NCBI RefSeq assembly: GCF_035083965.1
Contig: NC_089724.1
Span: 17,726,410-17,790,409, forward strand
Source: Branchiostoma lanceolatum
Taxonomy: Eukaryota; Chordata; Leptocardii; Amphioxiformes; Branchiostomatidae
Length of the DNA stretch: 64,000 bases
Reading direction: 5' to 3'
Of this stretch, positions 30,541 through 64,000 are shown one piece after another; positions within the stretch are counted from its first letter, which is position 1, and every line of letters begins with the position of its first letter. Position numbers and translations under genes: made by a program. The notes beneath the pieces are model-generated. The model was not told the DNA's origin, did no database searches, and saw nothing but the letters and a program-made list of their open reading frames with translations.

Positions 30541-30579
30541 AACAAATTATGAGCTCAACAAAGAAGGTTATGCTGATAT

Positions 30580-31575
30580 TTTTCATTAATTATGCAAATG
30601 AGGCCCTTATTAGCATAATTTGATTCAACGATTTTTACATTCACATAACGTCCCGATGCCAAAAAAAAAGATTGAATGTATGAAATTGCCGTCATTTGCC
30701 AGTGTGGAATTAGAGATGTTACTCATTAAGTATGCAAATTAGCCCACATTAGCATATTTTCTATCTATAAACATTTCTCTCTTCCTCAGTTACAATTTGA
30801 ATAGTCATATCATGGAACAAAGTGGATTTTTAAAGTTGCCTCATTAATTATGCAAATTAGAATCTGATTTGCATAATTATTGTCCAATCATACTAAGCAT
30901 CACACAAGCTATCTACATACCAAAAATAATGACCATCCATCAAGCCCATCTTGTTATAGTATTTCCTCATTAATTATGCAAATGAGGTCTTCATTTGCAT
31001 AGTTCATATCAATTAATATTTCTCTCTTCCTCAGTTACATATGTCACATGTTTCAGAGTCCTATCATGGAATTTGGCGGATGTATAAACTTTCCTCATTA
31101 ATTATGCAAATTATATACTGATTTGCATAAGAGGTGTCTAATCATGTACATCATCACTCAAGCTATCTACCTACCAAAAATCATTACCATCCATCAAGCC
31201 CTTCTTGAGTTATTCCCTTTCAAAGTCAGACGCAAAACCCGCTTCTGCAGTTCCAAAAAAGCCGCTAGGGGGCCCAAACCCACACCACTTACTCTCTGTC
31301 CAAAGATCTATCTACCACTCAAAAATAACTTCCATAGCATGTCCAGAACACGAGATATCAAACCAGGAAGTTCCGCTGCAGTACCGTAAGAAGCCGCTGG
31401 GGGGCCCAAAATCTAATCGTTTTAAGGTCTCATCAAAACCTACCAACATACCAAATACCAAGACAATCCATCAAGGCGTTCTTGAGTTATTCTGTGCCAC
31501 TACAAACAGACAAACAGACAAACAGACAAACAAACGCTACCCTCTGCATAACCTTCTCGGCAAAGGTAATTAGGG
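30580..31575. repeat. Dispersed repeat with ~127-bp-spaced octamer palindromes and a CAGACAAA tail
   Basis: The motif (CC)TCATTAATTATGCAAAT recurs near 30582, 30721, 30839, 30965 and 31093, the later copies spaced 118-128 bases. An inverted ATTTGCAT follows at several copies. A longer 245-bp periodicity is seen in the CTCTCTTCCTCAGTTAC segment. From 31.2 kb the repeat changes to blocks with CCGCTAGGGGGCCC and ends with a CAGACAAA microsatellite. It looks like a nonautonomous interspersed element related by its monomer to the arrays at 41.7 and 63.2 kb. Confidence 0.65.
31498..31536. repeat. Microsatellite (ACAAACAG)n
   Basis: About four and a half copies of an 8-bp unit at the 3' end of the dispersed repeat. 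A shorter relative (CAGACAAACAAACAGACA) lies in OAT intron 4 near 35.0 kb. Confidence 0.8.
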
Positions 31576-32126: not shown

Positions 32127-35100
32127 GTAGTCCTGAAGTTTCGCGCAGTACAGCCTGTGGCTGCAAGGTTCGCCAGCACAGCTGCAGAGCCGCGGTACGG
32201 GGCAAAATCTGAGGATATCTTCAAACGGGAGGACCAATACGGAGCACACAACTACCACCCTCTTCCTGTGGCACTGAGCAAGGCCAAGGGTAGGTGGTAC
32301 CAGACCTGCAGTCTAGTCTGGGCATTCGCAACTGTTGTTTTATCATGTGACATCTTTGAATGAAAAATTCAATTTCTGCAATGAATGACTGGTTAAACAC
32401 AGTAAACTGATCGGTTGATTGATTGATTGATTGGTTGATTGATTCATTGATTCATTGATTCATTGAAAAATCATAGAAATATCACAAAACCAATGTATGT
32501 TATCTCTTGTACAGCAATAGATTCAGATATATATAAACATCATAATTTCAATATTTCAACAAAGACAGACATAATATAACTTTCAAGATCATTTACAAAG
32601 ATCATTGATTTATTGGTCACAGGTTAATTGCTTTTTTTCTCTCTTGAAATTTGTTATCCATTCTGAAATGTCTAATGTGAATACTATCCTCTCTAGGTGT
32701 ATTTGTTTGGGATGTGGAGGGGAAGCGATACTATGACTTCCTCAGTGCTTACAGCGCAGTCAACCAAGGTCACTGTCATCCCAAGATCATCCAGGCGCTG
32801 AAGGACCAGTCTGACAAGCTGACTTTGACCTCCCGAGCATTCTACAACGATGCCCTTGGGGAGTATGAGGAGTATGTGACCAAACTGTTTGGGTATGACA
32901 AGGTTCTACCCATGAACACAGGTAGGTTTATAGTTGCTGCTGTAGCTGTTAATGTTGTTTTACTTAGTAGTAGCAGAAGATATTGTTGTTGTTGTTGGGG
33001 TTCCTGTTTTCTCTGCTTTTAAAGTTTAAGTGAGCAAAACAATGATATGTCGCAAATATCTCATAAGGGTTTGAAGTCAGTAGTGTAGGTTTCCCTTGGC
33101 ATAGATGGGGTTGATACAATTTAAGTATATATTTGTAGTCAAAGGGGGACATGGATGTACATGTATAACTGATGCCTCAACTTCCTGTGGGGCTTAAAAC
33201 TTGGATTATGTATGCAGGTGTGGAAGGTGGGGAGACCGCCTGCAAGCTGGCCAGAAAGTGGGCTTACACTGTCAAGGGTGTGCCTGACAACCAGGCTAAA
33301 GTAGTCTTCGCCAACGGGAACTTCTGGGGGCGGACGTTGGCAGCCATTTCCAGCTCTACTGACCCTGACAGCTTTGCTGGGTTTGGTCCATACATGCCTG
33401 GGTTTGACCTTATTCCATACAACGACCTTGGAGCGCTGGAGGTGAGAAAGGCCTTATTATGATGGGTCTCATACAGATTTACATTCATACACTTTAATAT
33501 ACATAATGTTTGAGCGCATCTTCCTTTCTGTAGATTTTGAGCTCAAAATTATGTACAAAAAATTTAAACATAAACTGGTTGGCTACTCAGATAAAGCTAA
33601 AACTATTAAGGGTCTTAACTAATTTCAAAAAGTTGAAATAAGTTTTGGGAAACCAAAGGGTAGGCATTAAGCTGATGTGGAAAGCATTTGAAAGAAGACA
33701 GAACAGAGGAACACAAATGACCATAAGAATGAAACATTCTGGACGCTGAGTGGGCAACGAAATGGTTTCTTTTCCTCCTTGGCCTCACGGTAATATTAGA
33801 TACATTGACATATACGCCAGGCTTGTTGCTTTTTTAAAACTCTACAAGCTAAAGTTGCGTATAAACTTGATAAGCTTTGATTGTGTTGTTACCATGGTTT
33901 GTTGATTATATGTTGCAGAAAGCTGTGAGTGACCCAAACGTGTGTGCGTTTATGGTGGAGCCCATCCAAGGAGAGGCTGGTGTAATCGTGCCGCATGAGG
34001 GATACCTGAGGGGAGTCCGTGAGCTCTGCACCAAACATAATGTAAGTAGTGCAGGGGATGACGAAACATGAAGGTCTAGTATCTCTATGAAATGCTTTTG
34101 GTTTTTGTAAATTTCTTGTTTTGTTCACTACATGTAATGTGAATTTCTCACTGATTCTGTCAAAAGCTTATTTCATTTGTCATTCGGCAACAGACATGCA
34201 TATGGGGGCACCCCCTAGTTTATTTTGGGTCTCAAGTCGAGTTTGTACACCCTCAAGTCTAGCGACTGTCTCTTCCAGGAAATACTTCTGAGGCAAAACA
34301 ACCATGAATGGGAATGAAGGATATCCCTCTAGCTACAAGAAAACCTGAGTTTCGGTTTCTTCAACCTCTGTAAGTTTAGTAAATATAAGAGGGAACAAGT
34401 ATTTTTCCTTAAAAAATGTGGCGCAAAATTTGGCATTTTCCCGTGGAACTAAACACATCACAAAATTTTTTGACAAGAAAATGACTGTTAGTGTCAGAAA
34501 GAGAAACCTCCAAGGTATAATCAAGCCCATTATAAAGAAAATCCTACCACTGAGATTTTCACAATAACCCGACGCGCGAGGTAATGCAACACGGCCAAAA
34601 GAACGCAACAAAGGTCAATCTGGGTCAAAGGGGCAGTTTACTTTTAACGCGTATGGATATCCGGAAGTAAGGCTCGGATTGAAGCGCAATTTCCACCCAA
34701 AACACACCAATTCATACGCTTTTCAGCCATGTTAGTATTTTATGTCAGTTCGAAGCACATTTTGAGAAATGTGAACTCAAACCCAGACCATCGAAACCCT
34801 TTCGTCACGGACTTTCACGGACCCCTGTGGCGGAAGAACTGGTGTGTGCACCGATATACAGTAGCAGGAAATTGAAGACAGGAAATGAGTAACCTGTTCT
34901 GGGACCTTTCTGGAACATTTGGCCTAACTTCCTGTCAGTGTCCTCCATGTGCCTATAGCTAGTATGTGGAAACCAGCCACTCTGTTAATTCAAACAATTA
35001 CAGACAAACAAACAGACACACTGAAAACAAAACCTCAGAACAGGGAGGTAAAAGGGCTACTTGACAGATCAAAAGTTGTGTATGTCATCAGAGTATTATG

Positions 35101-36426
35101 TATGGACCTTACAGCTCTATCTCTCCCCGTCCAGGTCCTGTGGATTGCAGATGAGGTGCAGACAGGACTGTGCAGAACTGGTCGCCGTCTGTGTGTGGAT
35201 CATGAAAACGTCCGTCCTGACCTTGTTGTGTTGGGCAAGGCACTGTCTGGTGGGGTCCTGCCTGTGAGTACACAGGCTTTATAAATGCAATACAGTCATT
35301 TGGATGAGAATTACCTAAACTGTGACCTATTGGAGATGTTATTAATGCTGTATATATACTACCATGATGTTTTATACAGTATTTGTCATTGTTATTGTTG
35401 TTGAGATGTAGCAGACAGCTAGTCGTATGTGAGTTCAGGTCTGTGGTCATTTGCCACACTAGTCAGTTTGTGTAAGTGTCTTGTGTGCTCATGTTCACTG
35501 CCTGTTTGTAGGTGTCCTTTGCACTCATGTTTCCTGCCTGTTTGTAGGTGTCCTGTGTACTTGCTGATGACGAGGTGATGTTGACCATCAAGCCAGGCGA
35601 GCATGGCTCTACCTACGGAGGGAACCCGCTGGCCTGCAAGGTGGCCATTGCTGCCCTGGAGGTGAGCTTAGACATCCATACAATTTAAAAGAAACCTGTT
35701 GTAATAAGCTGCACATTCAAATGTGTTGTATCACGGTTGTAGCTCATATCAATCATGTTAAATGTTGGAATTTTGGATAAGGCTGTAGCCTGTACATTGC
35801 AGTAAGATACTGTATACTGCGGTGATAAGCAGTATAAATCTTAGTCAGATTTATTTGTGTATGTGCTGTGTTGTTTGATAGGATATACATATACCTATTA
35901 TGGGAAATGCTGGTAACACGTGATTGATATTATGTTAGGTACTTGAGGAGGAGAACCTGTCAGAGCGTTCGGAGCACCTCGGCCAGATCCTGCGCGCCGA
36001 GCTCAGCAAACTGCCCAGTGACATCGTCACTCTGGTGCGAGGAAAGGGGCTGCTGAACGCCATCGTGATCAAGGACACTCCAGGTGAGTTACCGTATGCA
36101 AAAAGCTGATATGCAAGGTTAGCAAAACCTAAGATAAGCTTTCAGGAACTGAAGTATCTTGTATTTGCTCAAATCTTGGCTTTTATGTGTCAATAATGAT
36201 CATGGCAATGTCATTGCATTGCCACTGTTGACACCATGATTTCAACACTTCTGTTGCAGAGTTTGATGCGTGGAAGGTGTGTCTCCGTCTCCGTGACAAC
36301 GGTCTCCTGGCAAAGCCCACCCACGGTGACATCATTCGTTTTGCGCCACCCCTTGTTATCACTGAGGACCAGTTGAAGGAATGCATCGGCATCATCTCAG
36401 ATACCATCATCTCCTTCCGTCAGTAA
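32115..36426 (+). CDS. OAT: Ornithine aminotransferase, mitochondrial
   Basis: Coding exons: 32115-32289, 32697-32921, 33218-33441, 33919-34041, 35135-35263, 35548-35661, 35939-36083, 36260-36426. All junctions are GT-AG and in phase, giving 433 aa (human about 439). OAT is a fold-type I PLP enzyme that converts ornithine and 2-oxoglutarate to glutamate-5-semialdehyde and glutamate in the mitochondrial matrix. Seen here: a basic, Ser/Arg-rich leader ([20 protein letters not shown]) fitting a mitochondrial presequence; [57 protein letters not shown]; the PLP aspartate region IADEVQTG (D255, Q258); the PLP lysine in LGKALSGG (K284); [10 protein letters not shown]; and [11 protein letters not shown]. 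The start lies directly behind a minisatellite with an acceptor-like site, so an upstream noncoding exon is likely. The gene looks intact. Confidence 0.97.
32413..32466. repeat. (ATTG/ATTC)n microsatellite in OAT intron 1
   Basis: GATT tetranucleotide run with TTGATT and TTCATT variants. Confidence 0.85.
34681..34853 (-). repeat. Dispersed repeat, copy 2 (inverted relative to 12430-12610)
   Basis: The reverse complement matches copy 1 through shared blocks GTGACGAAAGGGTTTC, TTTGAGTTCACATTTCTCA, GTGCTTCGAACTGA and ATGGCTGAAAAGCGT. It lies within OAT intron 4. Confidence 0.7.
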
Positions 36427-36787
36427 ATGAATGCCTGCATTGACCATCCAGCTGATAGAAAGGAACAACAAGATTGACCATCCAGCAGACAGAAAGGAAC
36501 AACAAGATAACTTCTCAAAGAAAAGGGTTATTTCTCAAAATGAACTGATGTATCATGAGGTTGTGAAGTATCTGTATTGTTACTTGTGCCCTTAAACAGA
36601 TAATAGCAAGTTAGTTCATTGTCAAAGATGGATGAAACACAAAAGAACAATTGCAAAGATGGATAATTTGTCAAAATTGCAATGATCGTGGATAATGATT
36701 GACATGAAGAGGTACTCTTAATACATCTTCTCTACTGTATTACTAAAAGAATGTTAAAGGTATTACTGAGGGAATCTCTCACTCATT

Positions 36788-37589
36788 ATGTTTAGCCATA
36801 CCTAGTATGGCTCAACATATTGTTTTTGTTCACGTTCTTCTTCTCCTGCCATATCTTCAAATGGAATCTACTCCGTCATTTTTGGGCCAAACGGCCTGGA
36901 ATTTGGCATGTAGGTAAAGATGGCAAATACCCTTAGGTGATTTTTTAATTTTGTTGAAACAGGCATTAAAATCATTTTTATGGAGTTTTTTTGGGGCATT
37001 TTTAGACAATTTTTATATTTTGGGCTCCTGTGCGCTGGTATTGCAAGCAAGTGACCTGAAATTCGGTACAAGGGTGGCTTGAACATGTCCCTACAGGACT
37101 TCAATCACAATTCTGGTGTACATCACTTCAGAATGCTTCATTTTGGGGACTTTTGGGCCCATTTTCAGACCAAAAACAGGCCAAAAGTGGTATCCCCGTT
37201 CCATGTTCTATTTGCTGCTGGCCAAGGAATCCATGTTCTATCTAAGGATCCCCGCGTTCCATTTGCTACTGGCCAAAGAACGCGTGTTCTATTTAGGTCA
37301 CCTGAGGTCATATTGCAGGAACACACGCAAGCCTTTGCAGTAAGAAGCTCTTGGGGTCTCGCAGAACTTGTAGAGAGAATTTTTTTTTGCACGGGTGATT
37401 TTGGAACAGTCAATTTATGCATCGGGAGGGAGATTGGCGAAGTATGATGCTCTCGCAAATGTTGCCTTTCTACATGCAGTTAATATTTCGATTTGCCCAG
37501 GCATTATTTTGGGACAGCCCACTTCTTGCATGGGGAGGAGTATGGCTAAACATGCTGTATTTGCTCAGGGCAAATGACGGCCTTTCTAG
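36788..37589 (+). mobile_element. Helitron-like nonautonomous element, copy A
   Basis: The 5' end is a hairpin (ATGTTTAGCCATAC at 36788-36801, GTATGGCTCAACAT at 36805-36818) followed by ATTGTTTTTG and a CTTCTTCTCC stretch. The 3' end has GTATGGCTAAACAT (37540-37553), a perfect complement of the 5' left arm. A small hairpin TTTGC..GCAAA (37560-37574), 11 bases, then CTAG (37586-37589) followed by T complete it. A 3' hairpin about 11 bases before CTRR is the Helitron terminus rule. It lies between OAT and C11orf54. No helicase is encoded; the open frames inside are not conserved in the other copies. Confidence 0.7.
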
Positions 37590-38950
37590 TTAGGATGGTG
37601 TTTCTTATGAACATACCCAACACAGTACTTGAGTTACTTTTCATTAACCTGGATGCACTATTGTTGCGAGGATTCCTGCTAACATGCAAAAATTAGTGGG
37701 ACTGAAGATAGAATGAATCTAAATCCTATAAGCTCTGTTTGTTATAAGATATAAACAACTGTTGATAATGATAAAATCATTATCATCTGCAAAGTTGTTA
37801 CCATTACATAGATACTCACTGTGCATAGATAATCACTGTGAACTACAGATTGTATCTGTTGCAATACACTATCCTTCTTTAGCCTGTGTTACACAATGTC
37901 TTGCTGTTAGGGACAACTAGGAGCATGATTTTGACAAAGCTAACAGTTACATCTTCCTTCTGCTACAGTAAACCATCTGTTTGTCGGGGGTGTTGGGCTA
38001 GTAGATCAGGAATTTGATGGGGTTTTTGGTGGAATACGAGACTGGATGTCTAAGATGGCACTGAAAAACAATAACACATAGTTATACTGTATTACCAAAA
38101 AGAAATGTAACCTGTCTAATCATTGTACGGTGAGTAATGGTTGGTGAACCCATGAAATAGACGTGGCGTACAGTGTAATTTGTGATGCACCATATGACTA
38201 TACACATAGCAGATTTATGTTCCCAAGTTGAGTTTGATCTTGTATTTGGTCTTCAGTAGACTAGTATGTCCTTTGAGCAATTTACACTAACATACATGTA
38301 TTTCTTAATTCCAAATTGAAGATACATGTACAGTACATGTACATTGTATTGCAGAAAACAAATTTTGTAGCAGCGCTGTTAAAGTTCTTATGTTTCCTAA
38401 TGTAATCAATTATATAGCAATCACAGTGTTAGTTTATCAGGTGTTAATTGATGAATATCAACAAAAATGTAAGAAAATTAAGGTGTTTATTGTTTACCAA
38501 AAAATGTAAAGAACTGATGTGCCAGAACTGTTAATAACTTTGATGTAACTGGAGATACAAACATAAAAGAATAAAGCAGTCCATGAGGAGACTCTTGGTG
38601 TGCCAGATCTGTAGTTTGGTGAGAGTGCCAGGTCTGTAGTGTTGGAAGTGAGTATAGCGAGTCCCTGAAGTATGTGCATTCTTGATCACTGCATCTGTTT
38701 CATATCTCCCCCTAGCATATTGCCACAAAATAACATTGCCAGCTCTGTATGGCATGATCAGCACCATGACCACAACCAGTTCTTGTTAATCATCCAGTTA
38801 CACTATAAACAGACTGTTGTAATGTTAGATTTGGTATGTTTTACTCTTCCATTTTTACAATTTTCAGCAAGCTTGTTTCTCGTACAATTTAGTCATTTGG
38901 ATCATGGTTGAACAAAATGTTTTGCCAGAGCACAAAACTTGACTAATGTG
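37590..38950. other. Intergenic between OAT and C11orf54
   Basis: No coding or RNA features are recognised. A TACATGTACAGTACATGTACA near-palindromic run occurs near 38.33 kb. Confidence 0.45.
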
Positions 38951-38952
38951 GC

Positions 38953-38964
38953 TACTCGCGAGTA
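38953..38964. promoter_or_regulatory. TACTCGCGAGTA palindrome upstream of C11orf54
   Basis: A perfect 12-bp palindrome about 60 bases upstream of the C11orf54 ATG. It resembles the CGCG-box (TCTCGCGAGA) of housekeeping promoters in animals, with changed outer bases. The position suits a core-promoter role; this is inference. Confidence 0.45.
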
Positions 38965-39025
38965 TTTCTAAAAACACCCCTCAAATGGCGTGTGGCATAA
39001 CCCAAGGTTCAAAGGTTAGACCATC

Positions 39026-42000
39026 ATGGCGGAGCGTGAGATGGCTGTGGAGAGGAAGGAGGCTTTCGTGCCGCCGCTGGACGAGCTTGCCGCAGGTTTG
39101 GCACGGTTTTTTGTGTGCAGTTACTCAGGAATAAGCAAGGATCACCATCGAATCAACTCTCACTGAAATCATGATCCCAGTACTGTCTGGCCGCTAGTGA
39201 CAGCTCACCCATGCAAAGTCCAAAGCCGAAAGTTCTCGGGGGCGTGGTTTTTAAACTCTAACAGGACCTCATGATCTAGTTCTATCGATCCATCCACGAT
39301 CGTGTCTACATAATGAATTCTGCTTTTTCCTGGACAACCCACAGTTCTGCAGGCTGGCCTGAGCTCCAACTTCCTGGATGCCAAAGTCAAGGTTGTGGAC
39401 TGTCCTGACCTGACACAGCCACCCTTCACACTAGCAGCACCAGGTACCAGTGTTATTTACATGTGTCAGGGTAGGGATTAGGATCGACAGAAATTTATTG
39501 GCGATCTACCGGTAACGTTAGAGGTTTTGATGTATATCTCTATCCTGTCCTAACACAGCCATTCTTTACAACAGTAGCTCCAATTTGTCGTGTCTTGGTG
39601 TTGTAGTGTTGTTGTTTTGCTGCCTACAGGACTATGTGGCAGTCCCCGGGTGGCTGATGTTGGAGGAGTGCCATACCTCGTCCCCAGCCCTCAGCTGGAC
39701 AAGGTGGGTTACTTTGGCATCAGCTTACAGTGGTACATGATGATGCAAGTACATTGTAAAGAGTGGTCCATGATCAAAAAGTTTCTCTCAGTGATCTATT
39801 AACCTTCTCCCAACTGCCTAACTTTGTAGTGTGCTAAAGGTTGAACCTGTAACATATACAGTGGTACAATATAAGATCTGTCCTCATTATGACGGTGAAA
39901 TATTGTGATGATACAATAAGCTAAACTAGATTGAGATTTTTTTCTTGTCGATGAAGGTTAGATATACAGGTAATAAGATATTCCAAATAGCAGTTACTCA
40001 AGCAATTGGATATGATTTTGTTTTCTCTCTATGTGCAGAAGTATAACCTGGAGCAGGTGGCAGGACAGGTGGATCTCCCAGGTGCATTTGTCCTGGGGGC
40101 TGGTGCAGGTGCTGCACATGTGGTCGGAGTCAACTGTGAGGTAAATATATACATGTTACACTTTTAGCGATTTTTCTTTGAAGAATTGGTAGGGTTTAAG
40201 CTCATGGCGACTTGAGTAGATTTTGTTCAAACACCTGATGGGTTTACCATGCTAGCTGATGACTAAATAGTCTGCAGACTTTTTTCCGAAAGTCTTTTGG
40301 ACGGATTTTATGGATCTGTGATGACAAAAGGTGTATTCTCCAGGTTTAAAAGTGTTAAAAATTATAGAATGAAAATTGATAGAAATGTGTCATTGATAAC
40401 ACCCAAGCACTGACAAACATTTGCATAACTCCAGTTTTTGACAAGTTCACACTGTTGTTGTCTCACATCATGAGATATGGTTGAAGGCTTTAGGTGATTT
40501 TTTTAACCTCTCTCATAGTAAAAAAAAAATGGATGACCTTTCAGATAAGCCCGTAATTTGAGCTGAGTTCCATACATATTCTTTGTGGTCAGATGATGCC
40601 CAACATCAGGACCATGGGCGGGGCCCACAGCAGGAACAACCAGACTAGAGTTTCACGTGTCAACACAGAGGTGAGTTACATCTGTTCCAATAATAGCACA
40701 TGAAAGTCAGTTTTGCAAGTCTGTGTGTGGACATGAAAATATCCATCAAATTCTTAAGCCACTTCATAAACTGTTACAACACTTCTAGAGGGCTGTGCAG
40801 ATATAACTTGACAGTTTTAGTAAGAGCCGCAGTAACGAAACTGAATGCTTAAGCTTATGCAAGGTCAAATCCTCAACAGACCCCAGCACCTATTCATCAA
40901 GTGCCCATATTGAGGGCTCTGCCTATGGATTTGTGTCTATGGGTTTTTTGTGTTGTTGTTTACTGTGTTGCTGTTGACTAAGTCATTTAATTTGCTGTTG
41001 TTTAGGATGGGACGTGTATACTGGAGCACTATGAGGATACCTACCAGTGCCGTGAGTTCTGCCTGCTGGCTAACCTGTTCTTCAGCGAGGGCAAACCTGG
41101 CAAGGTTAGAGGTCACAGGAGTTCTGAACAAAACCCTGTTTTGATATTTTCCCAAAGAATACTGAGAATTGTTGTCTTCCATTTTTATGTTTCGCCAACG
41201 AAACATATTGTTTTTGTCAGGTTTCTTCTTCTTCTCCTTCTTCTTCTCCTGTCAAATCTTCAAATCGCTTCTTCTCGGTCGTCCGTCGACCAAATTAGCT
41301 GAAATTTGGTATGGAGGTAGAGTTTGTGTATACCCCTAGACCCTTTTAAATTTTTTTTCATATAAGTTTTTAAAATTATTTTATCGAGGTTTTTTGGTCA
41401 TTTTCTGACAAAAGTCGCACATTATGGCCTCCAGTGCCGTGGTGTTGAAACCTAAGGACCTGAAATTTGGTTGAGTTGTGCATTGGATATTTACCCAAAG
41501 GACCCCATAATTTTTTTTGGTATACACTACTTCAAAATGAATTATTTTGCAATTTTTTGATGGAATTTTTGGTTATTTTCTCACAACTAGGTCATCTTGT
41601 AACATAAGCCCTCCTACACTTCCCCTGTCTGGGAGTTAAAACCAAGCAGATGTCAGGGGGTACCACTACTAATGGTATTACAGAAAGTTATATGTACCTT
41701 ATGTTACATGGTACGGATGTTATATTTGAGATGTAGGTACCTATAGGAAAGGTGAATACACCTGACAATTAATTATGCTAATGAGGACCTAATTTGTATA
41801 ATGTATGCATAAAGTTGTATGTCCCTTACCGTAAAAGCTGCGGATGTCATCTTTGAGATGTAGGTACCTTTAGGAAAGGCGAACACACCTGGCCATAAAT
41901 CATGCTAATGAGGACCTAATTTGTATAATCGATGCATAAAGTTGTATGTCCCTTACCGTCAAAGCTGCGGATGTCATCTTTGAGATGTAGGTACCTTTAG

Positions 42001-43723
42001 GAAAGGCGAACACACCTGGCCATAAATTATGCTAATGAGGACCTCATTTGCATGATTTATGCGTAAACTTGTTATTTCCTTACCGGAAAAGCTGCAGATG
42101 CCAGATTTGAGATGTACGTACCGTTAGCAAAGGTGATCACACCTGGCCATGAATTATGCTAATGATGACCTCATTTGCATAAATCATGCATAAACTTGTA
42201 TTTCCCTTACTGTGAAAGCTGCGGATGTCATCTTTAAGATGTAGGTACCATTAGGAAAGGTGAATGCACCTGGCCAAAAATTATGCTAATGAGGACCTCC
42301 TTTGCATAATTCATGCAGAAACTTGTATTTCCCTTACCGTACAAGCTGCAGATGTCATATTTGAGATGTAGGTAGCTTTAGGAAAGGTGCACACGCCTGG
42401 CCATGACATATGCTACTGAGGACCTCACTTGCATAATTTATGCATGATGTTGTATTCCCCTTACTGTAAAAGCTGATGTCATCTTGAACATGTAGGTACA
42501 TGTAGGAAAGGTGAAAGCACCTGCACATAACTTATGCTCATGAGGACCTCATTTGCATAAATTATGCAGAAACTTGGATTTGCCCAGGAGTTATTTTGGG
42601 ACAGCCCACTTCTTGCATGAGGACTATGGGCGAAACATCCTGAATTTGCTCTCAAAGCAAATGACGGCCAGTCTAGTTTGTTATTGGATTTCCTGTCATT
42701 GACTATGCTAATGTTTTGTGTCTTTGTTCAGGTGCTAGAGGTCAAAGCCAAAGTCCGTACTGGACAGGAGAACTTTGTCAGCTGCTTGCGGAAGACCCTG
42801 GAGCAACAGTACGGAGACAGGCCTGTCGCTCTGGGTGGCACCTTCCTACTGGAGAAAGGTCAAGCCAAGATCCATATCATGGTGAGATTTATGATCATGT
42901 TTCAGGTGACAGCATCACACAGCAGGAAAATAGCTCGCCCTGAAACATTTTTGGCAGCAATACAGCCTGCGTACTTTCAATCACTGCACATTTTTTCTGT
43001 GGGCAGGTCACTGTGCCCATCCAATGCAACTGGGTAGATTTGTAGGTGAAATATATGCTCAACTATCTGGCAATTTTAAAATTTGTGCCCTTCTGGGTGT
43101 GTTCTGATGATTGACAGTGTGATGCCAACTTTAGAGATGGATCAAAGAAGACATATTTGATGGTGACGTGGTTTCCAGTTTCAGGTATTTAGAGCTTTTC
43201 TTCATTTTTTCCCCTCCAGCCTGGGTTCTCCAAGACACCCTTGCAATCTGACCAGGACGTCAACAACTGGCTGAACTTTTTTGAGATGGGTGGACCTCTG
43301 ATCAACCTTAGTGTGTTTGTATCCAGGGACCCTGTAAGTACATATAGTACCCTAACCAGTAGTTTTATCAAAATCAGTGTGATTCGAATAAGTATGAGGT
43401 GAACCATCATGATATTACTTTTATTTATTTATCTATTCATTATGTTTCTCCAACACAGTGGAAGGTATGGTTAACAGCTGTTCCATGTCTAAGGTCACCT
43501 TTTCAAGGCCGCCATTATGCTAAGCTTACTTTGTTTACCCCCCATGTAGGGCCTGGACCTGCGAGTGGAACACACCCACTGTTTCTCCCACCATGGGGAG
43601 GGGGGCCACTACCACTACGACACCACGCCTGAAGAGGTGGAGTACAGAGGCTACTTCCTCCCTGCTGAGTACATCTACCGTGTGGACCGCCCGAAGGTCT
43701 CCCACATGATCGGCAGGGACTGA
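39026..43723 (+). CDS. C11orf54: C11orf54/PTD012-type zinc-dependent ester hydrolase (DUF1907)
   Basis: Coding exons: 39026-39095, 39345-39443, 39630-39703, 40039-40140, 40593-40670, 41006-41104, 42732-42881, 43220-43333, 43550-43723. All are GT-AG and in phase, giving 319 aa against about 315 in human. Recognisable family blocks: LSSNFLDAKVKVVDCPDLTQ, GGVPYLVPSP, GAFVLGAGAGAAHVVGVNCE, FLLEKGQAKIHIM, WLNFFEMGGPL and HTHCFSHHGEGGHYHYDTTP. Known for PTD012: a single-domain DUF1907 fold with zinc held by three histidines and ester hydrolase activity in vitro. The matching residues here are probably H270, H272 and H282. The physiological substrate is unsettled. The start ATG has a strong context (ATCATGGCGG). 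Intron 6 is swollen by a Helitron-like element and would otherwise be about 136 bases. Confidence 0.95.
41186..42676 (+). mobile_element. Helitron-like nonautonomous element, copy B, in C11orf54 intron 6
   Basis: The 5' hairpin TATGTTTCG / CGAAACATA (41186-41207) is followed by ATTGTTTTTG and CTTCTT blocks. GGCGAAACAT (42629-42638) exactly complements ATGTTTCGCC at 41187-41196. The 3' hairpin TTTGCT..AGCAAA (42645-42661), 11 bases and CTAG (42673-42676) then T match copy A's terminus. The interior carries a 127-bp-unit array absent from copy A. It is in the same orientation as the host gene. Confidence 0.72.
41690..42570 (+). repeat. 127-bp tandem array (about 7 units) inside Helitron-like copy B
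   Basis: The landmark ATGCTAATGAGG recurs at 41775, 41902, 42029, 42156, 42283, 42410 and ~42534: exactly 127 bases for the first five steps, then 124. Each unit has the near-palindrome ATTATGCTAATGAGG / CCTCATTTGCATAAT and the blocks CCCTTACCGTAAAAGCTGC, GAGATGTAGGTACC and CACACCTGGCCATAA. Confidence 0.9.
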
Positions 43724-45030: not shown

Positions 45031-48000
45031 TTAGAACTGGACTGGACGGGCGTCGACTGCATTCTGCTCCATGGGACAGTACGGACACTTCACCCTGGAG
45101 GGAGATCAAAGTATCTGTTAGGTTTAGGCACAACCACTTCTCAAGAAAATGTGGCTTCACTAGAACAGTAATAACATTCATATGGTTTCACCAGTAAAAT
45201 CCCACAGCAAAACCCACCACAATAGCTGTAATAAGCTGAACCACCTACTTGTTATTCGTGTTCAGCTTATTAAGAGCATCTCTGGAGATCACATGACCAC
45301 AGACCAATCGTACAGGAGGGTTTGTCTCTGTGGTCTGCTGTCGGAGGATCGGGCAGGCGAAGATGGAGTGGTAACGCGTCTCCCCGCCAAGGTCAATCTC
45401 AATCTACAGGTCAGTACAACAGAGAGCACCTGTTGTTACTCCACAGCAATAGGTGCAACAAAGCATCATTGCATGATGCAGATTCATCAATTTTAATTCC
45501 ATGGCTTGAAGGCACTCTTAGCTTCTTCAGAAGCTACTCCCCATTACCAAAAGAAGGCAAATGACAAATGAATGGCAGTTATCTATGTTACATTATTATT
45601 TTTATCTAAGGATATCTTTACATCATATCTGGTATTGTTACATGATTTAAGTAAAGAACATAGATTTTGCACTTTAAATGTTGTAGTCTTGCATTTACAA
45701 TGTCCCCAGAAACTTTCCTTGGCAAATGCATTGTGCAAAACCAAACAGCATCAAAATATTTTTAAAGACATGAACATTGTTCCTCAAAACTGTGACGTTC
45801 CTCTTCAACTGTGCTTTACTTACAGGCAGCTCGTCCTTCTGGTTCCACACATTGGTGCACTGTCGCTGCTTCATGACGTGGTTAATATTCAGTAGAGATG
45901 GAAGTGAGATACAGCCTGCTGCAAATCTGTAGTATGTGACAACACAAGAGTTACCATGAAAGAATATAGCTCCGTAGAGTACATGGTATAAGCAGTGAGT
46001 TGTGCTATACTAAGATGGTTCCATGGGCACATTGCACAAAACCTATACTACATTAAGGCTACATTGTATAAGGCGACATAATACATAGGGAGACGGGCTC
46101 GCACTAGACTACATACATCCTGTAGGGAAAGGTCTAACACTAGCAAGAGGGATTCACAGAGTTCATTCTATAGAGGAGGACTTTTTCTAATTTTATGAGA
46201 GAGGAAGCCTAAAGCGTGTATCTCACTGGACTGTGTGCCGGTTTGCTTTCACTATAACATAAGAATGCTTGGCACAATTAGATTTAGTCTTGTGAAATAC
46301 CCACTTTAGATTGTATATGAAGACCATGTTGTATATAAAGGGGGAACTTACGCCACACTGAGCGGACTCTCCACAGACAGGCCGAGCAGCTGGCAGGCGT
46401 CACGTGTGAAGACATCACAGATATCCAGCCAGTGGATGGGGTCCAGCAGGTGGAGGTAGGGGGAGTTGTGAACACCCTGTTGTACATACAGCAGGCTGCC
46501 CATCAACGTCTGGATCTCTGGGGGTACAGAAATGTAAAAATAAGCACAAACAACAACAACAACCTCATAACAACAAAAAGTCTGATGAACACAGGCAACA
46601 GTAAAAACAAGCACATTTTGTTATCTCTCTCTTAAAGCTGCATCATTTTACATTAGTGGTTGATGGTTATACATGACGTGGTGCTGTAAAGTGAGAAACT
46701 TGTGAAGTCTATTCGCTTTTTTTTTCTAAATAGCTGGAGTGTTCGCCGAGTTGAAATAGATATGCATACACATCCATCAGCTACTAGCCTAGTTTGAAAA
46801 ATGTGTTTCTCGGAAATAGAGCTCTTTAGATCTTCATCTAGCCATCAATTGCTGTTAACATCATCCATTATGGTGTCCAACATGACAGTTAAAAATAGCT
46901 ACTTTTACACCACAGATGTTTCCACATCATTTATTCCCCCAACACACATAAATAATCGCAACAAACCTTTTGCATGGCGATATGCAAAGGGCTCAAAATT
47001 CCTCGAGTAGAGTAGTGCCTCCATCTGTCTAGCAGGGCCCCCTTTCAGCAATTCAATAAAGTGCAGCCTGTGCAGTTTGAACTCCAATGCACTGCTCTGC
47101 TGCTGCAGCCGTTCACGATTCCGCTTTGCCCACCTAAGGAAAAGAGAAACAGCTTTCATTAGAACTTCTATTCTGATAATTTTTTTCAAAGGAATCAGAA
47201 CTCCTATTCTAATGGTTTTTGTCAAAAGAATAGAAATGACTATTCTTATGATTTTTGGCAATGAGCACAATGGAGAGTGCAAAAATCAAGCAAAATCTGT
47301 GGGGCAACACAAGAAAAGAATTCCTACATGCTGATAATTTTCTACCAGCTTATGCTGTTTATGACCATGACTATATCAAAATGTTACACTAATGTAGGAT
47401 AGAACTGCTTACTCTAAGGCAGGAAAGAGGTTGTGCTGTTTCAGGGCCTCCAGAATCCTGTTCAGCTCAAAAAACGGCTCCTTCTGGGCCTCATCAATCT
47501 GCAGCCTGGCATCCTGCAAGAGAATAGTAGTACAATGGGATTAGTGAAGATACAACAATGGTAATGGACAATTCATAATGGCAGCAACAGTGAGAACAGA
47601 ACATGGTAACACAGAACCATGACAATACACATCAGGATATGTTTCACCTGGATCAGCTGCTCGCCGATGTCCAACATGCCCTGGCGGAAGAAGTGCTCGC
47701 AGATAACCTCGTTCAGCAGCGATCGTTTCTCCTCACCGACAAACGCACCTTCTACCGAACAGGCACTGATGTCCTGGATAAAGTTCTGTAGAAAAAGGAA
47801 GCAATAATCACTCATACTTGTATCTGTAATATACACTACTGTTTGTCATGAGAGTTGGATGCATACACACAAAAACCACATAGAAACTAAAACAGTCCTG
47901 ACCCTGTCAATAGCTTTGCCCACTTTGGACACGGAGCTGTGAAGGTCCTTGTGGTCATTGGACAGGCGCTGGCAGGTGTCCTTCACTTTCTTCAGACACT

Positions 48001-50757: not shown

Positions 50758-51420
50758 GTAACTATGTTTGTTTTCTCCTGATTTATTTTCGGATTCTCGG
50801 ATAAGTTTGACTCCTATACTCGTTATGATGCTTAAACATCACAACTATAGCTTTGCCTTGTGTTTTAAGTTTCTAGATCGGTCCCCTTCGCAGGATATTT
50901 TTCGAGAAACTTTTTCCTGCTGGAATGCTATGATCGATTGGAAGTTATAAGTATAACTGGGCGATGTGAAAGATTTAAAGTGCAGTAAGGCGTTTGATTT
51001 GACGTCAAAGTCTTTTAACCAATGTCAAAACCAGATTAACAGCAAACTGCTATGTATGCATATCCCTAGCGGTCTCTTCACTTATTCAGGACTGTATGAT
51101 GATAATATGGCGTACCGTCAAGCAATTAGGATCTACTATTTGGTAATATAGACTGATAGATGAAATGACTTCCACCCCCAGAAAATTGTTAATACATAGG
51201 GCCTCATTTTTCTTTTCCCCACGAAATACCTATGTGTTACAACACCATAAAGATTAAGTCTGTAGGGTCTTAAGAAATTGTGCAAACTGTCCCAAGGGAC
51301 TCATATATTTGGCAGTGTTGACAGCTGCAGGTCAGGCTTGACAGCTGCAGTTCTGACAGCTGTACCCTTCTATGACAACTCCTGGCTGCCGGTTTACCTT
51401 CCATCTGTTACTGCCCACCT

Positions 51421-51916
51421 GCAGGTTTGTAGGCATGATCGGAGGTGGTACAGCTGATTTATCTTACATCTGTTCCTGCCCACCTGCAGGTTTGTAGCTG
51501 TGATCGGACGTGGTACAGCTGATTTATCTTACATCTGTTCCTGCCCACCTGCAGGTTTGTAGGCATGATCAGAGGTGGTACAGCTGATTTATGTTACATC
51601 TGTTCCTGCCCACCTGCAGGTTTGTAGGCATGATCAGAGGTGGTACAGCTGATTTACCTTACATCTGTTCCTGCCCACATGCAGGTTTGTAGCTGTGATC
51701 GGACGTGGTACAGCTGATTTATCTTACATCTGTTCCTGCCCACCTGCAGGTTTGTAGGCATGATCAGAGGTGGTACAGCTGATTTATCTTACATCTGTTC
51801 CTGCCCACCTGCAGGTTTGTAGGCATGATCAGAGGTGGTACAGCTGATTTATGTTACATCTGTTCCTGCCCACCTGCAGGTTTGTAGCTGTGATCGGAGG
51901 TGGTACAGCTGCAGCC
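51421..51916 (+). repeat. 65-bp minisatellite of repeated 3' splice sites before the RNF103 start
   Basis: GCAGGTTTGTAG recurs at 51421, 51486, 51551, 51616, 51681, 51746, 51811 and 51876, exactly 65 bases apart. Each unit carries CAGCTGATTTAT, then TCTGTTCCTGCCCACCTGCAG, a pyrimidine tract with AG. Each is therefore a full acceptor. The eighth unit runs into the first coding exon of RNF103, whose ATG is at 51917. Confidence 0.9.
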
Positions 51917-54900
51917 ATGCTAGTGCGGCTGCTGCTGCTGCTGGTGTACCTGTGTCTGCTGATGGTGGCTGTGCGGCTCCTGGAGGCAGCCACCTGGTTT
52001 GAGGCTGGTTTCCTGGCCGGACAGGTGAGTAGACTGGCTTGCGTTGAGGACATTTGTATCAGAAAGGATTGGAAATCTTTAAGGCTGCTCTCAAGCCAAA
52101 TGTTAAGCTTTATTTCACATATGCAGCTGTATATGCAGCTTTGTTGTACCCTGTTTAATAATCTTTAAGAGCTGTTGTCATCATAAAAGGACTTGCTAGT
52201 TAGATAGCATGGTTTGTATGAACCAAAATACCATTCTCAGTTATAGTTGTTACTTCCCTGTTTGTTTGTTTTTTGGTTTGTAAGATGCTGAAGTTACAGT
52301 TCAAATCTGAAAGCAAAACATGAAACATGATGGTCATTATTCTGCTAGGTGCTGGATCCACTGTCCATCAGTGTGCGGAGGTTGAAAATGATACTGGACT
52401 CCCGAGGTGTCAGTTATAAAGGCGTGTTGGAGAAGAGAGAACTGACAGACTTGGTGGAAAACTCAGGTGAGAGACTACTAATGGGGAAGAACTAAGGAGA
52501 TGATTAAAAAAGATAACTTAGGTGAGAGACCATTATTGGGAGAATAAATCAAGTGAGAGGCTGTTTGTGAGGAGAATGTGGAGTACAGAAAATTGCTTAA
52601 AGAGCTTAGAACTCCGATCGTAAAACGGAACTTATTGCTACCAAGCATCCTCATTCAATAGTTTTAGACAACACTTACAGTTAGATGTGCAAGCAAGGGT
52701 TAGGTGTGACAAGTCATTCAGTGTAGTATAATCAGGTGCTGTTGAGCCGCGTGCCCACGAAACTGGTGTGTTATGCCAATGGGCAGTTATACTGGCTATA
52801 CAGATACAGAAGAAAATAAAAATCTGATGAGGGCAGCTGTTTTGAAGAATCAAGATTAGAGACAGGCCAGTGGGACAAAACTTTGATAGGAGACTGCTAC
52901 AAATGATATATCCAACTTTTGCCTGCAGGTGAGCCAAAGGAAGGTGAGGTTTTGCTGGCTGCTGAGGAAGAAGATACAAAACCAACCAGCACCAACTTTA
53001 CAGGAGGGCCCCACTTCTATGAGGAGGTTGAAGACACCAAGGACAGTGTTTGGCTGGTTCAGGTAAGAATGGACTTCACTGCAATTTTACAATCTTAAGA
53101 TTTATTTCAAAATGCCCTTTGAGATAACAAGAATATCTGAACTACATGTATTTTCATGATTTTGCAAACTCGAAACTTTGCAAACTCGAAACTAACATGC
53201 AAAGTGGTTTAGGAGATCCTGACAGCACCAATAGTTGCTGAGGGCCAGACTTCCATAGAAGACACCATCATTGTGGACCAGAGAACTGACCAGATTTCTC
53301 CTGTCCACAGGTTATACCTGAAGACCACATTCCCTTATTAGGGCCCCAACAGTGGAAGAGTCTGGTCAGGAAAGTCTCACGGTTTGGAATACGAACAGGA
53401 ACCTTCAAATGCCACCTGGACAGGAAGTAAGTCTTAGAAACATGTACAAAACATTGCATTCTCAGTCACTGATGAAGATAGTGGATACTATCTGAAACAT
53501 CTTACTCTTTAGAGAACCTATCCTGTTGCTTGATTTATTTTCTATTACTTAATGCTCCACCTGGATGCCCAACCTTCATCAACCAAACGTTTAATTATTT
53601 TTTTTCTTTTTAATGACAGGAATTATTTACACATATTCTGTAAATTTGGTTGTTGACTCTGCTGCTAGTATGATCTGAGGTACAGAATACTGTGTGGTCA
53701 AGATCTACTCAATAGTAAGAATTTCATCTACAGTGGCTTAATGGGATTGCAGCTGCCAGTTTAACCCTTCATGAGCCAAGTCCAAATCAGCCTAGGAGGG
53801 TTAAGACAGTACAGTGAGTCTTTTTATTCAGTGACAGTACAATAACTTCATTTTTTTCTGTCCCATGCAGACTGTGTTGGAGGAAAGGCTGGGACCGACC
53901 TAGCCTGGCCCTTGCCCTCCCTCGGGGTCACCAGGCCAAAGGTCACATCTCTGTGCGAGTCTTCAACACCCCCAGCAAGGAGCAGACCATTCTAGACTGG
54001 ATCAACCAACATCTGTCGTCTCGAACCCACTCAGTTCTGTCCCCACACCAGTTACAGACGGACTGGCTAATGAAGAACCAGACACATCCAGTTCAAGTGG
54101 TCTTCTTCTCCCGACTGAAACAACCCCCCATGTTCTACTCTGCCCTGAGTGTCAAGTTCACTGGCAGGGTCAAGTTTGGCTACATGAGGTTGAACAAAAC
54201 CCGCAGCGGTCTGGACATATCAGGGAGAGAAAAGATTCCTGGCATCCTGGTCATCACTCCAGAAAGGAGGTACTGGTACGGGACAGGCAAGGGAGAGTTG
54301 CTGAACTTGCAGTCTATGCAGACGTACCTAAGGACTATGCAACCCGAGGTGAACGACATCTTCCTGGTGTGTTTGGTGTTGGCGAACCTGATGGCGGTGC
54401 TGGAATTGTTCCTGTGCAGAGGACAGGTGGGGGTGGGGGTACTGAGGCTGCTGTGGGCAGTGGGTAAATACAACTGTATGCTGCTGATGGTGTGTCTACC
54501 TGTGGTCGGGCTGTTCCAGCTGCCCTGTATGGAGGGTGTGGTTCAGGCAGGACTCATGGCTCTCCGCAACATCAGCAGCTCTGCTCTAGTGGCCCAGGCA
54601 CGGCAAGACTGGCTCCTCTACTCCTCTCACAAACCATTCCTCGCGGGAACTTTCCTACTGTACAGCATGGTTGTCGGAATCATAGCATCTAAATGGAAGC
54701 CTGAGGAGGAACTGGCCGAAACAACACCGACTGAACAGGCAGGGACCAATGGATGGTGGAGCTCATTCATGAACTACTTGTTTCAACCAATCAGCACTTT
54801 CAATCACACCCGTCCACCAAACCTCATTGGACTAGAGGACGGGCTTGATTACCTGATAGAACGGCTGGCTGTTCCGGACCTGTGGCTCCACCCTGTCATT

Positions 54901-55599
54901 CCCACCGACTATGTACGAAATTTGCCCGTCTGGCTGTACAAGGGAAGAATGCCCCTTGTGAGGAAGGTTTGCTCCAAATGTTGTGGCTGGGGGGGTTCTG
55001 CAGATCAAGCTGCTATGGTAATGAAGTTGCCTACTGGTCACTCTGAGTCCTCCAACCGTGTCATGAATTTGCCTCCCTCCCCAGGCCGCACAGGCCATAG
55101 ACCCCCCTCTCCAGGCCGTCACCCATCACAAGTCCACAAGTGTAACAAGACCCCTTCCACAGATGATACCCCCTTAAATTATACAGATGGTTCTGATTTG
55201 GCAAAATGTACCTGTGGGGAAAGGTCAAACGATGCACCTGGTCACTGTAATGTGTACAGTCACAATGTGAAAGTTCCATCCAAACATAACAACACCCCCT
55301 CGAGCCCTGACCCACCACCTGTTATGCCCACCACCAACCTGGACAAACCTTGTACCTGTGGAAACCCCCAACAGACCCCTGCTGCCTCAGGCTTCCCCCT
55401 GGGGATCCTCCACTGTGAGGACTGTGCCATCTGTCTGGAGGAGTATGAAGTCGGCTGCTCCCTGCTGGGCCTGCCCTGTGGACACAGCTTCCATGAGAGG
55501 TGCATCATGATGTGGCTGTCTGCAGGGAACCATTGCTGCCCCGTGTGCCGCTGGCCAGCCTTCAAGTTTAAACCTGCACTCCATCTCCACTCTGAATAA
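51917..55599 (+). CDS. RNF103: RNF103-type membrane RING-H2 E3 ubiquitin ligase
   Basis: Coding exons: 51917-52024, 52349-52466, 52929-53062, 53311-53426, 53871-55599. All are GT-AG and in phase, giving 734 aa (human about 685). Known role: an ER-membrane E3 ligase (KF-1) acting in ER-associated degradation. Seen: an N-terminal hydrophobic anchor (LVRLLLLLVYLCLLMVAVRL); family blocks TSTNFTGGPHFYEEVEDTKD, KVSRFGIRTGTF and ALSVKFTGRVKF; LQPEVND-like QPEVNDIF opening a membrane region (~322-432, about three hydrophobic segments); LERLAVPDLWLHP-like IERLAVPDLWLHPVIPTDYV; a Pro/Ser/Cys-rich variable linker (~525-670); and a C-terminal RING-H2 with C677, C680, C695, H697, H700, C703, C715 and C718 all present. 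The start follows a minisatellite of splice acceptors. An in-frame upstream ATG at 51851 lies in repeat sequence and is less likely. The linker accounts for the extra length over the vertebrate protein. Confidence 0.95.
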
Positions 55600-63058: not shown

Positions 63059-64000
63059 ATATTCCCCTTCCAGTGGGAAGGGGGATATATTGTTTTTGCT
63101 GGCCTGTTCTTCTTCTTCTTCTGCCAAAAACCAGGCCAAGTAGATGTGTGGTGGTAGGTCTACTGATGGTATTGCAGTAAGTTACATGTACCTTATGTTA
63201 CATGGTACGGATGTTATATTTGAGATGTAGGTACCAATAGATTATGCTAATGAGGGCTTATTTGCATAATGTATGCATAAACTTGTATTTCTGTTGCCGT
63301 AAAAGCTGCAGATGTCATACTTGAGATGTAGGTACCTTTAGGAAAGGTGAGCACACCTGGCCATAAATTATGCTAATGAGGACCTCATTTGCATGATTTA
63401 TGCATAAACTTGAATTTTCCTTACCGTAAAAGCTACGGATGTCAGCTTTGAGATGTAGGTACCTTTAAGAGAGGTCAACACACCTGGCCATGAATTACGC
63501 TAATGAGGACCTCATTTGCATAATTAATGCAGAAACTTGTATTTTCCCTACCGTAAAAGGTACGGATGTCACATTTGAGTTGTGGGTACCATTAGGAAAG
63601 GTGAACACACCTGGCCATAAATTATGCTAATGCAGACCTCATTTGCATAATTTAGGCATAAACTTGTATTTCCCTTACCATGAAAGCTACGGATGTCAGC
63701 TTTGAGATGTAGGTACCTTTAAGACAGGTCAACACACCTGACCATGAATTATGCTAACGAGGACCTCATTTGCATAATTTATGCAGAAACTTGTATTTTC
63801 CCTACCGTAAAAGCTATGGATGTCATATTTGAGTTGTAGGTACCTTTAGGACAGGTGAATACATCTGGCCATAAATTATGCTAATGAGGTCCTCATTTCC
63901 ATAATTTACGCATAAACTTGTATTCCCCATACCATGAAAGCTACGGATGTCACATTTGAAATGAAGGTACCTTTAGGAAAGGCGAAAACACCTGGCCATA
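63059..64000 (+). mobile_element. Helitron-like element, copy C, running off the right edge, with a 127-bp array
   Basis: A 13-bp-arm hairpin (ATATTCCCCTTCC 63059-63071, GGAAGGGGGATAT 63076-63088, one G-T pair) precedes ATTGTTTTTG and CTTCTTCTTC, as in copies A and B. It then joins the same tandem monomer: landmarks at 63244, 63370, 63497, 63624, 63751 and 63878, spacing 126-127. The 3' end is outside the window. It lies upstream of heparanase. Confidence 0.72.

Follow-up and report, generated by a model that had tools for sequence, protein, structure and literature searches.

Complementary terminal arms in related HINE-like elements of a Branchiostoma lanceolatum genomic window

Terminal structure and identity of the elements

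Analysis of a 64,000-nt stretch of the Branchiostoma lanceolatum genome (the window) revealed two complete elements, A and B, and the 5' part of a third, C. In both complete elements, the first bases form a local 5' hairpin and also have an exact complement near the 3' end of the same element. We consider it very likely that the elements, with C as a probable member, belong to the non-autonomous rolling-circle transposons of the Helitron2/Helentron kind (HINEs) and depend for their movement on a RepHel protein encoded at another locus. A and B were assigned to this known kind because the same or a similar end layout is in print for Helitron2, Helentron/HINE, Cg_HINE, and FoHeli; they look like an ordinary example of the Helentron/Helitron2 class and not like a new kind of element. 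The Helitron-like identity proposed in the original prediction was thus upheld: that blind reading of the raw sequence had recovered the published Helitron2/HINE end layout.

Copy A is an 802-bp HINE-like element of the non-autonomous Helentron/Helitron2 type, which occupies positions 36788–37589 of the forward strand; its 5' border is uncertain by the flanking T's. The left arm (5'-ATIR, or 5' subTIR), ATGTTTAGCCATAC, which was used in the arm complement test, lies at 36788–36801 and is followed at 36805–36818 by the local right arm, with one mismatch at position 6. The resulting 5' hairpin is 31 nt long. The post-hairpin conserved block ATTGTTTTTG and a TTC-rich, microsatellite-like stretch come next (36819–36848). 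At the other end, a conserved 3' block, GGGACAGCCCACTTCTTGCA (37511–37530), precedes the distal partner (3'-ATIR, or 3' subTIR), which is an exact 14-nt complement of the left arm located at 37540–37553, 36 nt from the 3' end. The hairpin ATTTGC-TCAGG-GCAAAT (37559–37575) follows. The one long open frame that was scanned inside A gave no Pfam match.

Copy B (41187–42676, forward strand, 1490 bp) belongs to the same family as A and lies within an intron of a DUF1907/PTD012-type gene. Its 5' hairpin of 20 nt (41187–41206) has an 8-bp stem, with the left arm ATGTTTCGCC at 41187–41196. The central part is a tandem array of 6.9 copies of a 127-bp unit (41714–42581). The conserved block GGGACAGCCCACTTCTTGCA is found at 42598–42617, the exact 10-nt complement of the left arm at 42629–42638, 38 nt from the 3' end, and the hairpin ATTTGCT-CTCAA-AGCAAAT at 42644–42662. 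Copy C (63059–64000, forward strand) is cut by the end of the window, and its 3' end lies beyond; the visible part comprises a 5' hairpin of 13 pairs (63059–63088), the ATTGTTTTTG block from 63089, and, from 63237, an array with 6.0 copies of the 127-bp unit. A third, different hairpin had been predicted for C, and this was what we observed.

The order of parts at the 3' end was the same in A and B, namely the distal arm, a small hairpin, and CTAG. The left flanks end in TT (A), TTTTT (B), and TTTTTTTTT (C), and the right flanks begin with TT (A) and TTT (B). With the borders of A and B as drawn, no target duplication past the flanking T's was seen by eye. The ends were compared with two sets of criteria. 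A canonical Helitron (Helitron1) has a 5' TC, a 3' CTRR, insertion between A and T, and no 5' hairpin; with the borders as drawn, A and B have a 5' hairpin, lack the 5' TC, and are flanked by T on both sides, although their 3' CTAG does fit CTRR. Elements of the Helitron2/Helentron-HINE kind have a 5'-ATIR or subTIR 0–4 bp from the 5' end and an inverted copy of it near the 3' end. In both complete copies, the complementarity starts from base 1 of the element as drawn (14 nt in A, 10 nt in B). The remark that classic Helitrons do not have such ends was right, yet the sister groups Helitron2 and Helentron/HINE do have them.

Several observations count against the assignment. Helitron2 and Helentron are defined by their RepHel protein. 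The window contains 100 stop-to-stop frames of 85 aa or longer, and in the 30 longest of them no RepHel domain was detected at an E-value of up to 0.01. An autonomous partner would be classified by this protein, as a Helentron if the RepHel carries an endonuclease domain and as a Helitron2 if it does not. In addition, the ATIRs of B are unmatched past 10 bases, and the local hairpin of A contains a mismatch.

The elements might also be read as cut-and-paste transposons of the MITE type whose inverted repeats are subterminal, a class to which DINE-1-like elements were formerly assigned. They are short, have no detected coding domain, and carry inverted repeats near both ends. However, the repeats are positioned asymmetrically: the 3' one lies 36–38 nt inside, and a hairpin separates it from the end. 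Inspection of the flanks by eye revealed no duplication apart from the T's. Moreover, MITE labels of such elements were called incorrect by Thomas and Pritham (2014; PMC4067079). We regard the MITE-like origin as highly improbable and retain the assignment to the Helitron2/Helentron kind.

Significance of the arm complementarity

The two exact complements claimed in the original prediction were both confirmed, and their significance was estimated by shuffling the last 70 bases of each element. The 14-nt match of A was reached in none of 5000 shuffles, and the 10-nt match of B in 14 of 5000, a figure that ignores the near-identical relative position of the distal arm in A. When the arms were exchanged between the copies (A left against B right, and B left against A right), the longest exact match was only 6 nt. 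A 5' hairpin was present in the first 40 nt of all three copies, and for each of them 0 of 200 shuffles gave an equally good or better fold. Both complete copies also have a hairpin downstream of the 3'-ATIR, before the 3' end.

Both strands of the window were then scanned for the combination of a local hairpin, a 10-nt distal complement 300–4000 nt away, and a small hairpin after it. The scan returned two matches on the forward strand, A and B, and none on the reverse strand, whereas 30 one-strand shuffles averaged 0.13 matches and never exceeded one; the thresholds had been picked with A and B in view. Omission of the 3' hairpin gave eight matches per strand against a shuffle mean of 2.4 and a maximum of 6, and this weaker scan thus says little.

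These figures bear on the simplest explanation, according to which A and B are unrelated insertions and the complementarity of their ends is accidental. The 10-nt match of B was reached by some shuffles when taken alone, and the combination of a hairpin and a distal complement recurs eight times per strand when the 3' hairpin is left out. On the other hand, the match of A was not reproduced by shuffling, sequence similarity on both sides unites A and B in one family, and their distal arms occupy nearly the same relative place. An accidental origin is hardly credible, the least probable of the explanations considered here, and the case in which A and B were unrelated insertions is excluded by their alignment, which is given below.

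Kinship of the copies and covariation of the arms

BLASTN alignment of A and B yielded 106 columns with 84% identity at the 3' end and 329 columns with 68% identity on the 5' side, in agreement with the conserved blocks predicted at both ends. On the basis of this shared 5' and 3' sequence, A and B were placed in one family. B and C have in common the 127-bp tandem unit and short 5' stretches, and the similarity of A to C is limited to 40 alignment columns (75%, E-value 0.002).

Nine of the first ten bases of the left arms are identical in A and B; the statement that the very 5' hairpin differs between the two copies was thus too strong. The difference falls at position 7, where the left, local, and distal arms read A/T/T in A and C/G/G in B. 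The distal arms are homologous between the copies and, read as complements, correspond to ATGTTTAGCC-ATAC in A and ATGTTTCGCCCATAG in B. Past base 10, the left and distal arms of A still agree, whereas in B the left arm continues with AACG and the distal arm, read as the complement, with CATAG. In this region, the distal arm of B resembles the ATAC of A. Within A, the local arm is mismatched at position 6, and the distal match is perfect. The covariation therefore amounts to a single position, in two copies, at which the three segments change together. The predicted covariation of the hairpin with its distal partner holds at that position, but as a general statement it was overstated, given the mismatch of the arms of B past base 10.

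The original prediction had also raised the possibility of mutual copying of the ends. In this explanation, one end would be converted by the other in a joined-end or multimeric intermediate, so that new arms would appear at both ends together. In each copy, the left, local, and distal arms agree at position 7, and there they differ between A and B, which is what such a process would leave. Nevertheless, a recent conversion should give identity, and in B the left and distal arms are mismatched from base 11 onwards. The distal arms of A and B are also homologous to each other, and slow compensatory change explains the data. End copying is thus not needed and seems very doubtful to us, if somewhat less so than the MITE-like reading. 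Divergence accompanied by selection for pairing fits the homologous arms of A and B.

Possible switch of pairing at the joined ends

The arrangement of the arms suggests how they might act. In the resident element, the 5' left arm (5'-ATIR) would pair with its neighbour as the 5' hairpin. On arrival at the 3' end, or upon joining of the ends, the left arm would pair with the 3'-ATIR instead, which would open the 5' hairpin. In the new stem, the joint CTAG|ATG and the 3' hairpin would lie at the top, an arrangement that would mark the end of the copy. If the pairing and not the letters were under selection, the arms could drift between subfamilies with their complementarity kept. For A and B we infer mobility, a circular intermediate, and the local-to-distal switch.

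A simulated strand consisting of the last 56 and the first 40 bases of each element, with the intermediate assumed, was folded. The lowest-energy fold of the joined ends was the distal pairing, with -20.3 kcal/mol in A and -20.2 kcal/mol in B, compared with -16.4 (A) and -16.9 kcal/mol (B) for the sum of both ends folded alone. In this fold, the joint CTAG|ATG tops the new stem; in B it lies one base pair inside the stem. The energies modelled for the joined ends agree with the published switch model. In that model, as set out for Helitron2, pairing between the ATIRs was suggested to destroy the 5' hairpin and thereby set the endpoint of replication (Bao and Jurka, 2013; PMC3627910). The other suggestion of the original prediction, alternation of the left arm between a local and a distal partner, is already contained in this model.

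A stricter version, in which the two arms of each subfamily form a lock-and-key pair of their own and the 5' arm pairs solely with the 3' arm of that subfamily, appears unlikely. If it were true, turnover of the arms would isolate subfamilies from each other's ends, and one RepHel would still serve the common core. The role of the joined-end stem would then resemble that of the origin stem in rolling-circle replicons, where it is the pairing and not the sequence that is read.

The pairing model leads to an expectation for copy C: GGAAGGGGAATAT or a close match should lie about 36–38 nt before its 3' end. The gain from the window consists of two complete copies whose arms are related yet different, which alone changes little. 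A genome-wide set of copies would allow a covariation test of the switch model, compared with the one position and two copies available here.

Search for further copies and other features of the window

Further copies were sought with the conserved parts of the elements. The conserved 3' block had no matches in viral_contigs. In genome_contigs, it matched four bacterial records, none of which continues like the element by eye; in one of them (L003), TGACGGC occurs further along, and the rest of the element is absent. By our own arithmetic, about seven chance matches are expected for 18 fixed bases in 257 Gb on both strands. The 5' block was found in 27 contigs of viral_contigs, with a clean hairpin before the block in none of the 27; the best arms were one of 10 nt with two mismatches (L006) and one of 13 nt with three (L030). 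The 3' tip occurred in a single contig of viral_contigs, with flanks that by eye are unlike the element. Within the window, positions 30687–30698 of the reverse strand were considered as an extra 3' remnant and rejected, as the 12 bases contain one mismatch and the flanks are unlike the block by eye.

The gene that contains B was recognized by its exons. The exon at 41006–41104 matches residues 138–170 of PTD012 (1xcr; E-value 8.9e-5), and the exon from 42732 matches residues 172–220 (E-value 2.4e-16); the frame of the latter also matches Pfam DUF1907. The intron between them, with splice sites assigned by eye, covers 41105–42731 (1627 bp), of which B makes up 1490 bp. Three other frames matched a RING finger (53818–55596), a CTLH domain (46908–47285, reverse strand), and a class-III aminotransferase (34928–35281), and by the look of them these are host gene exons.

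A second, different HINE-like candidate element was noticed on the reverse strand at 31556–30563. It begins with GAAGGTTATGC (31556–31546), which has an exact 11-nt complement at 30573–30563, and contains a GTTTGTCT microsatellite and inner repeats spaced about 126–128 bp apart, a layout that resembles the oyster Cg_HINE. This candidate failed the structural scan of the window. The motif TTATGC...TTTGCATAA is common to the 127-bp units of B (41714–42581) and to the repeats of this second element at 30578–31146; the repeats with this motif form family D3 and show 61–82% identity to the D3 reference copy. Another tandem array, at 51393–51911, consists of eight copies of a 65-bp unit with 92% matches or, alternatively, of a 195-bp unit with 96%.

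Comparison with known systems

The end layout of A and B was compared with the parts of published descriptions that deal with such elements. In Helitron2, as in A and B, the 5'-ATIR is located at the very end and folds with its neighbour into a 5' hairpin, and the 3'-ATIR lies upstream of the 3' hairpin (PMC3627910). The same description reports compensatory mutations in this layout between the related elements Helitron-1N1_CQu and Helitron-1N2_CQu. It also places Chlamydomonas elements after a run of T's, and A and B are likewise flanked by T's. Unlike A and B, Helitron2 has a RepHel protein, which was not seen here in the 30 longest of the 100 window frames, and its 3'-ATIR is given there as lying approximately 20–30 nt from the end. 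The distances of 36 nt (A) and 38 nt (B) fall outside that range; they are also below (A) or at the lower edge (B) of the 38–60 nt given for the subTIR of mite HINEs (PMC4067079). Both discrepancies count against the assignment. However, the 3'-ATIR distance bears on the branch and not on the kind, since the Helitron2 range is approximate and the HINE range is 38–60.

The likeness to Helentrons and HINEs includes palindromic subTIRs of 12–15 bp, a 3' palindrome, T's on both sides, the lack of coding capacity, and, in some copies, tandem repeats (Thomas and Pritham, 2014; PMC4067079). HINE insertion is described there as taking place among T's without modification of the target site. The rule stated in that source for naming HINE families requires subTIR identity over 11 bp or more; A and B have a common core sequence and no such 11-bp subTIR, their left arms having 9 of 10 bases in common. 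Without 11 identical bases, A and B would by this rule be two families of one superfamily.

FoHeli elements of Fusarium resemble A and B in their ATIRs, the 5' hairpin, and a 3' inverted repeat about 20–50 bp inside, and differ in being autonomous with a RepHel and in their insertion site and termini; amplicons with joined ends were reported for FoHeli1 (PMC5148889). The Cg_HINE/Pearl-type elements of bivalves are described as having a 5' subTIR, an adjacent complementary inverted repeat, a microsatellite, and a central satellite-like array, and the oyster Cg_HINE ends in a 3' subTIR and a palindrome (PMC7492417). These parts also make up copy B and follow one another there in that order. According to the same description, the microsatellite of the bivalve elements mostly has 4-nt units, GTCY-like in several elements, compared with the TTC-rich stretch here, and the central unit is 140–180 bp on average, compared with 127 bp.

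In DINE-1 of Drosophila, the microsatellite is GTCY-rich, unlike that of A and B (Yang and Barbash, 2008; PMC2374699). In the types compared in that work, as in A and B, the subTIR sequence varies among related types and the layout is kept, with three subTIR types within D. willistoni. The sequence of the 3' stem varies as well, and its structure is retained. Differing arm sequences among related elements, as observed in A and B, are thus already known from the DINE-1 types described there.
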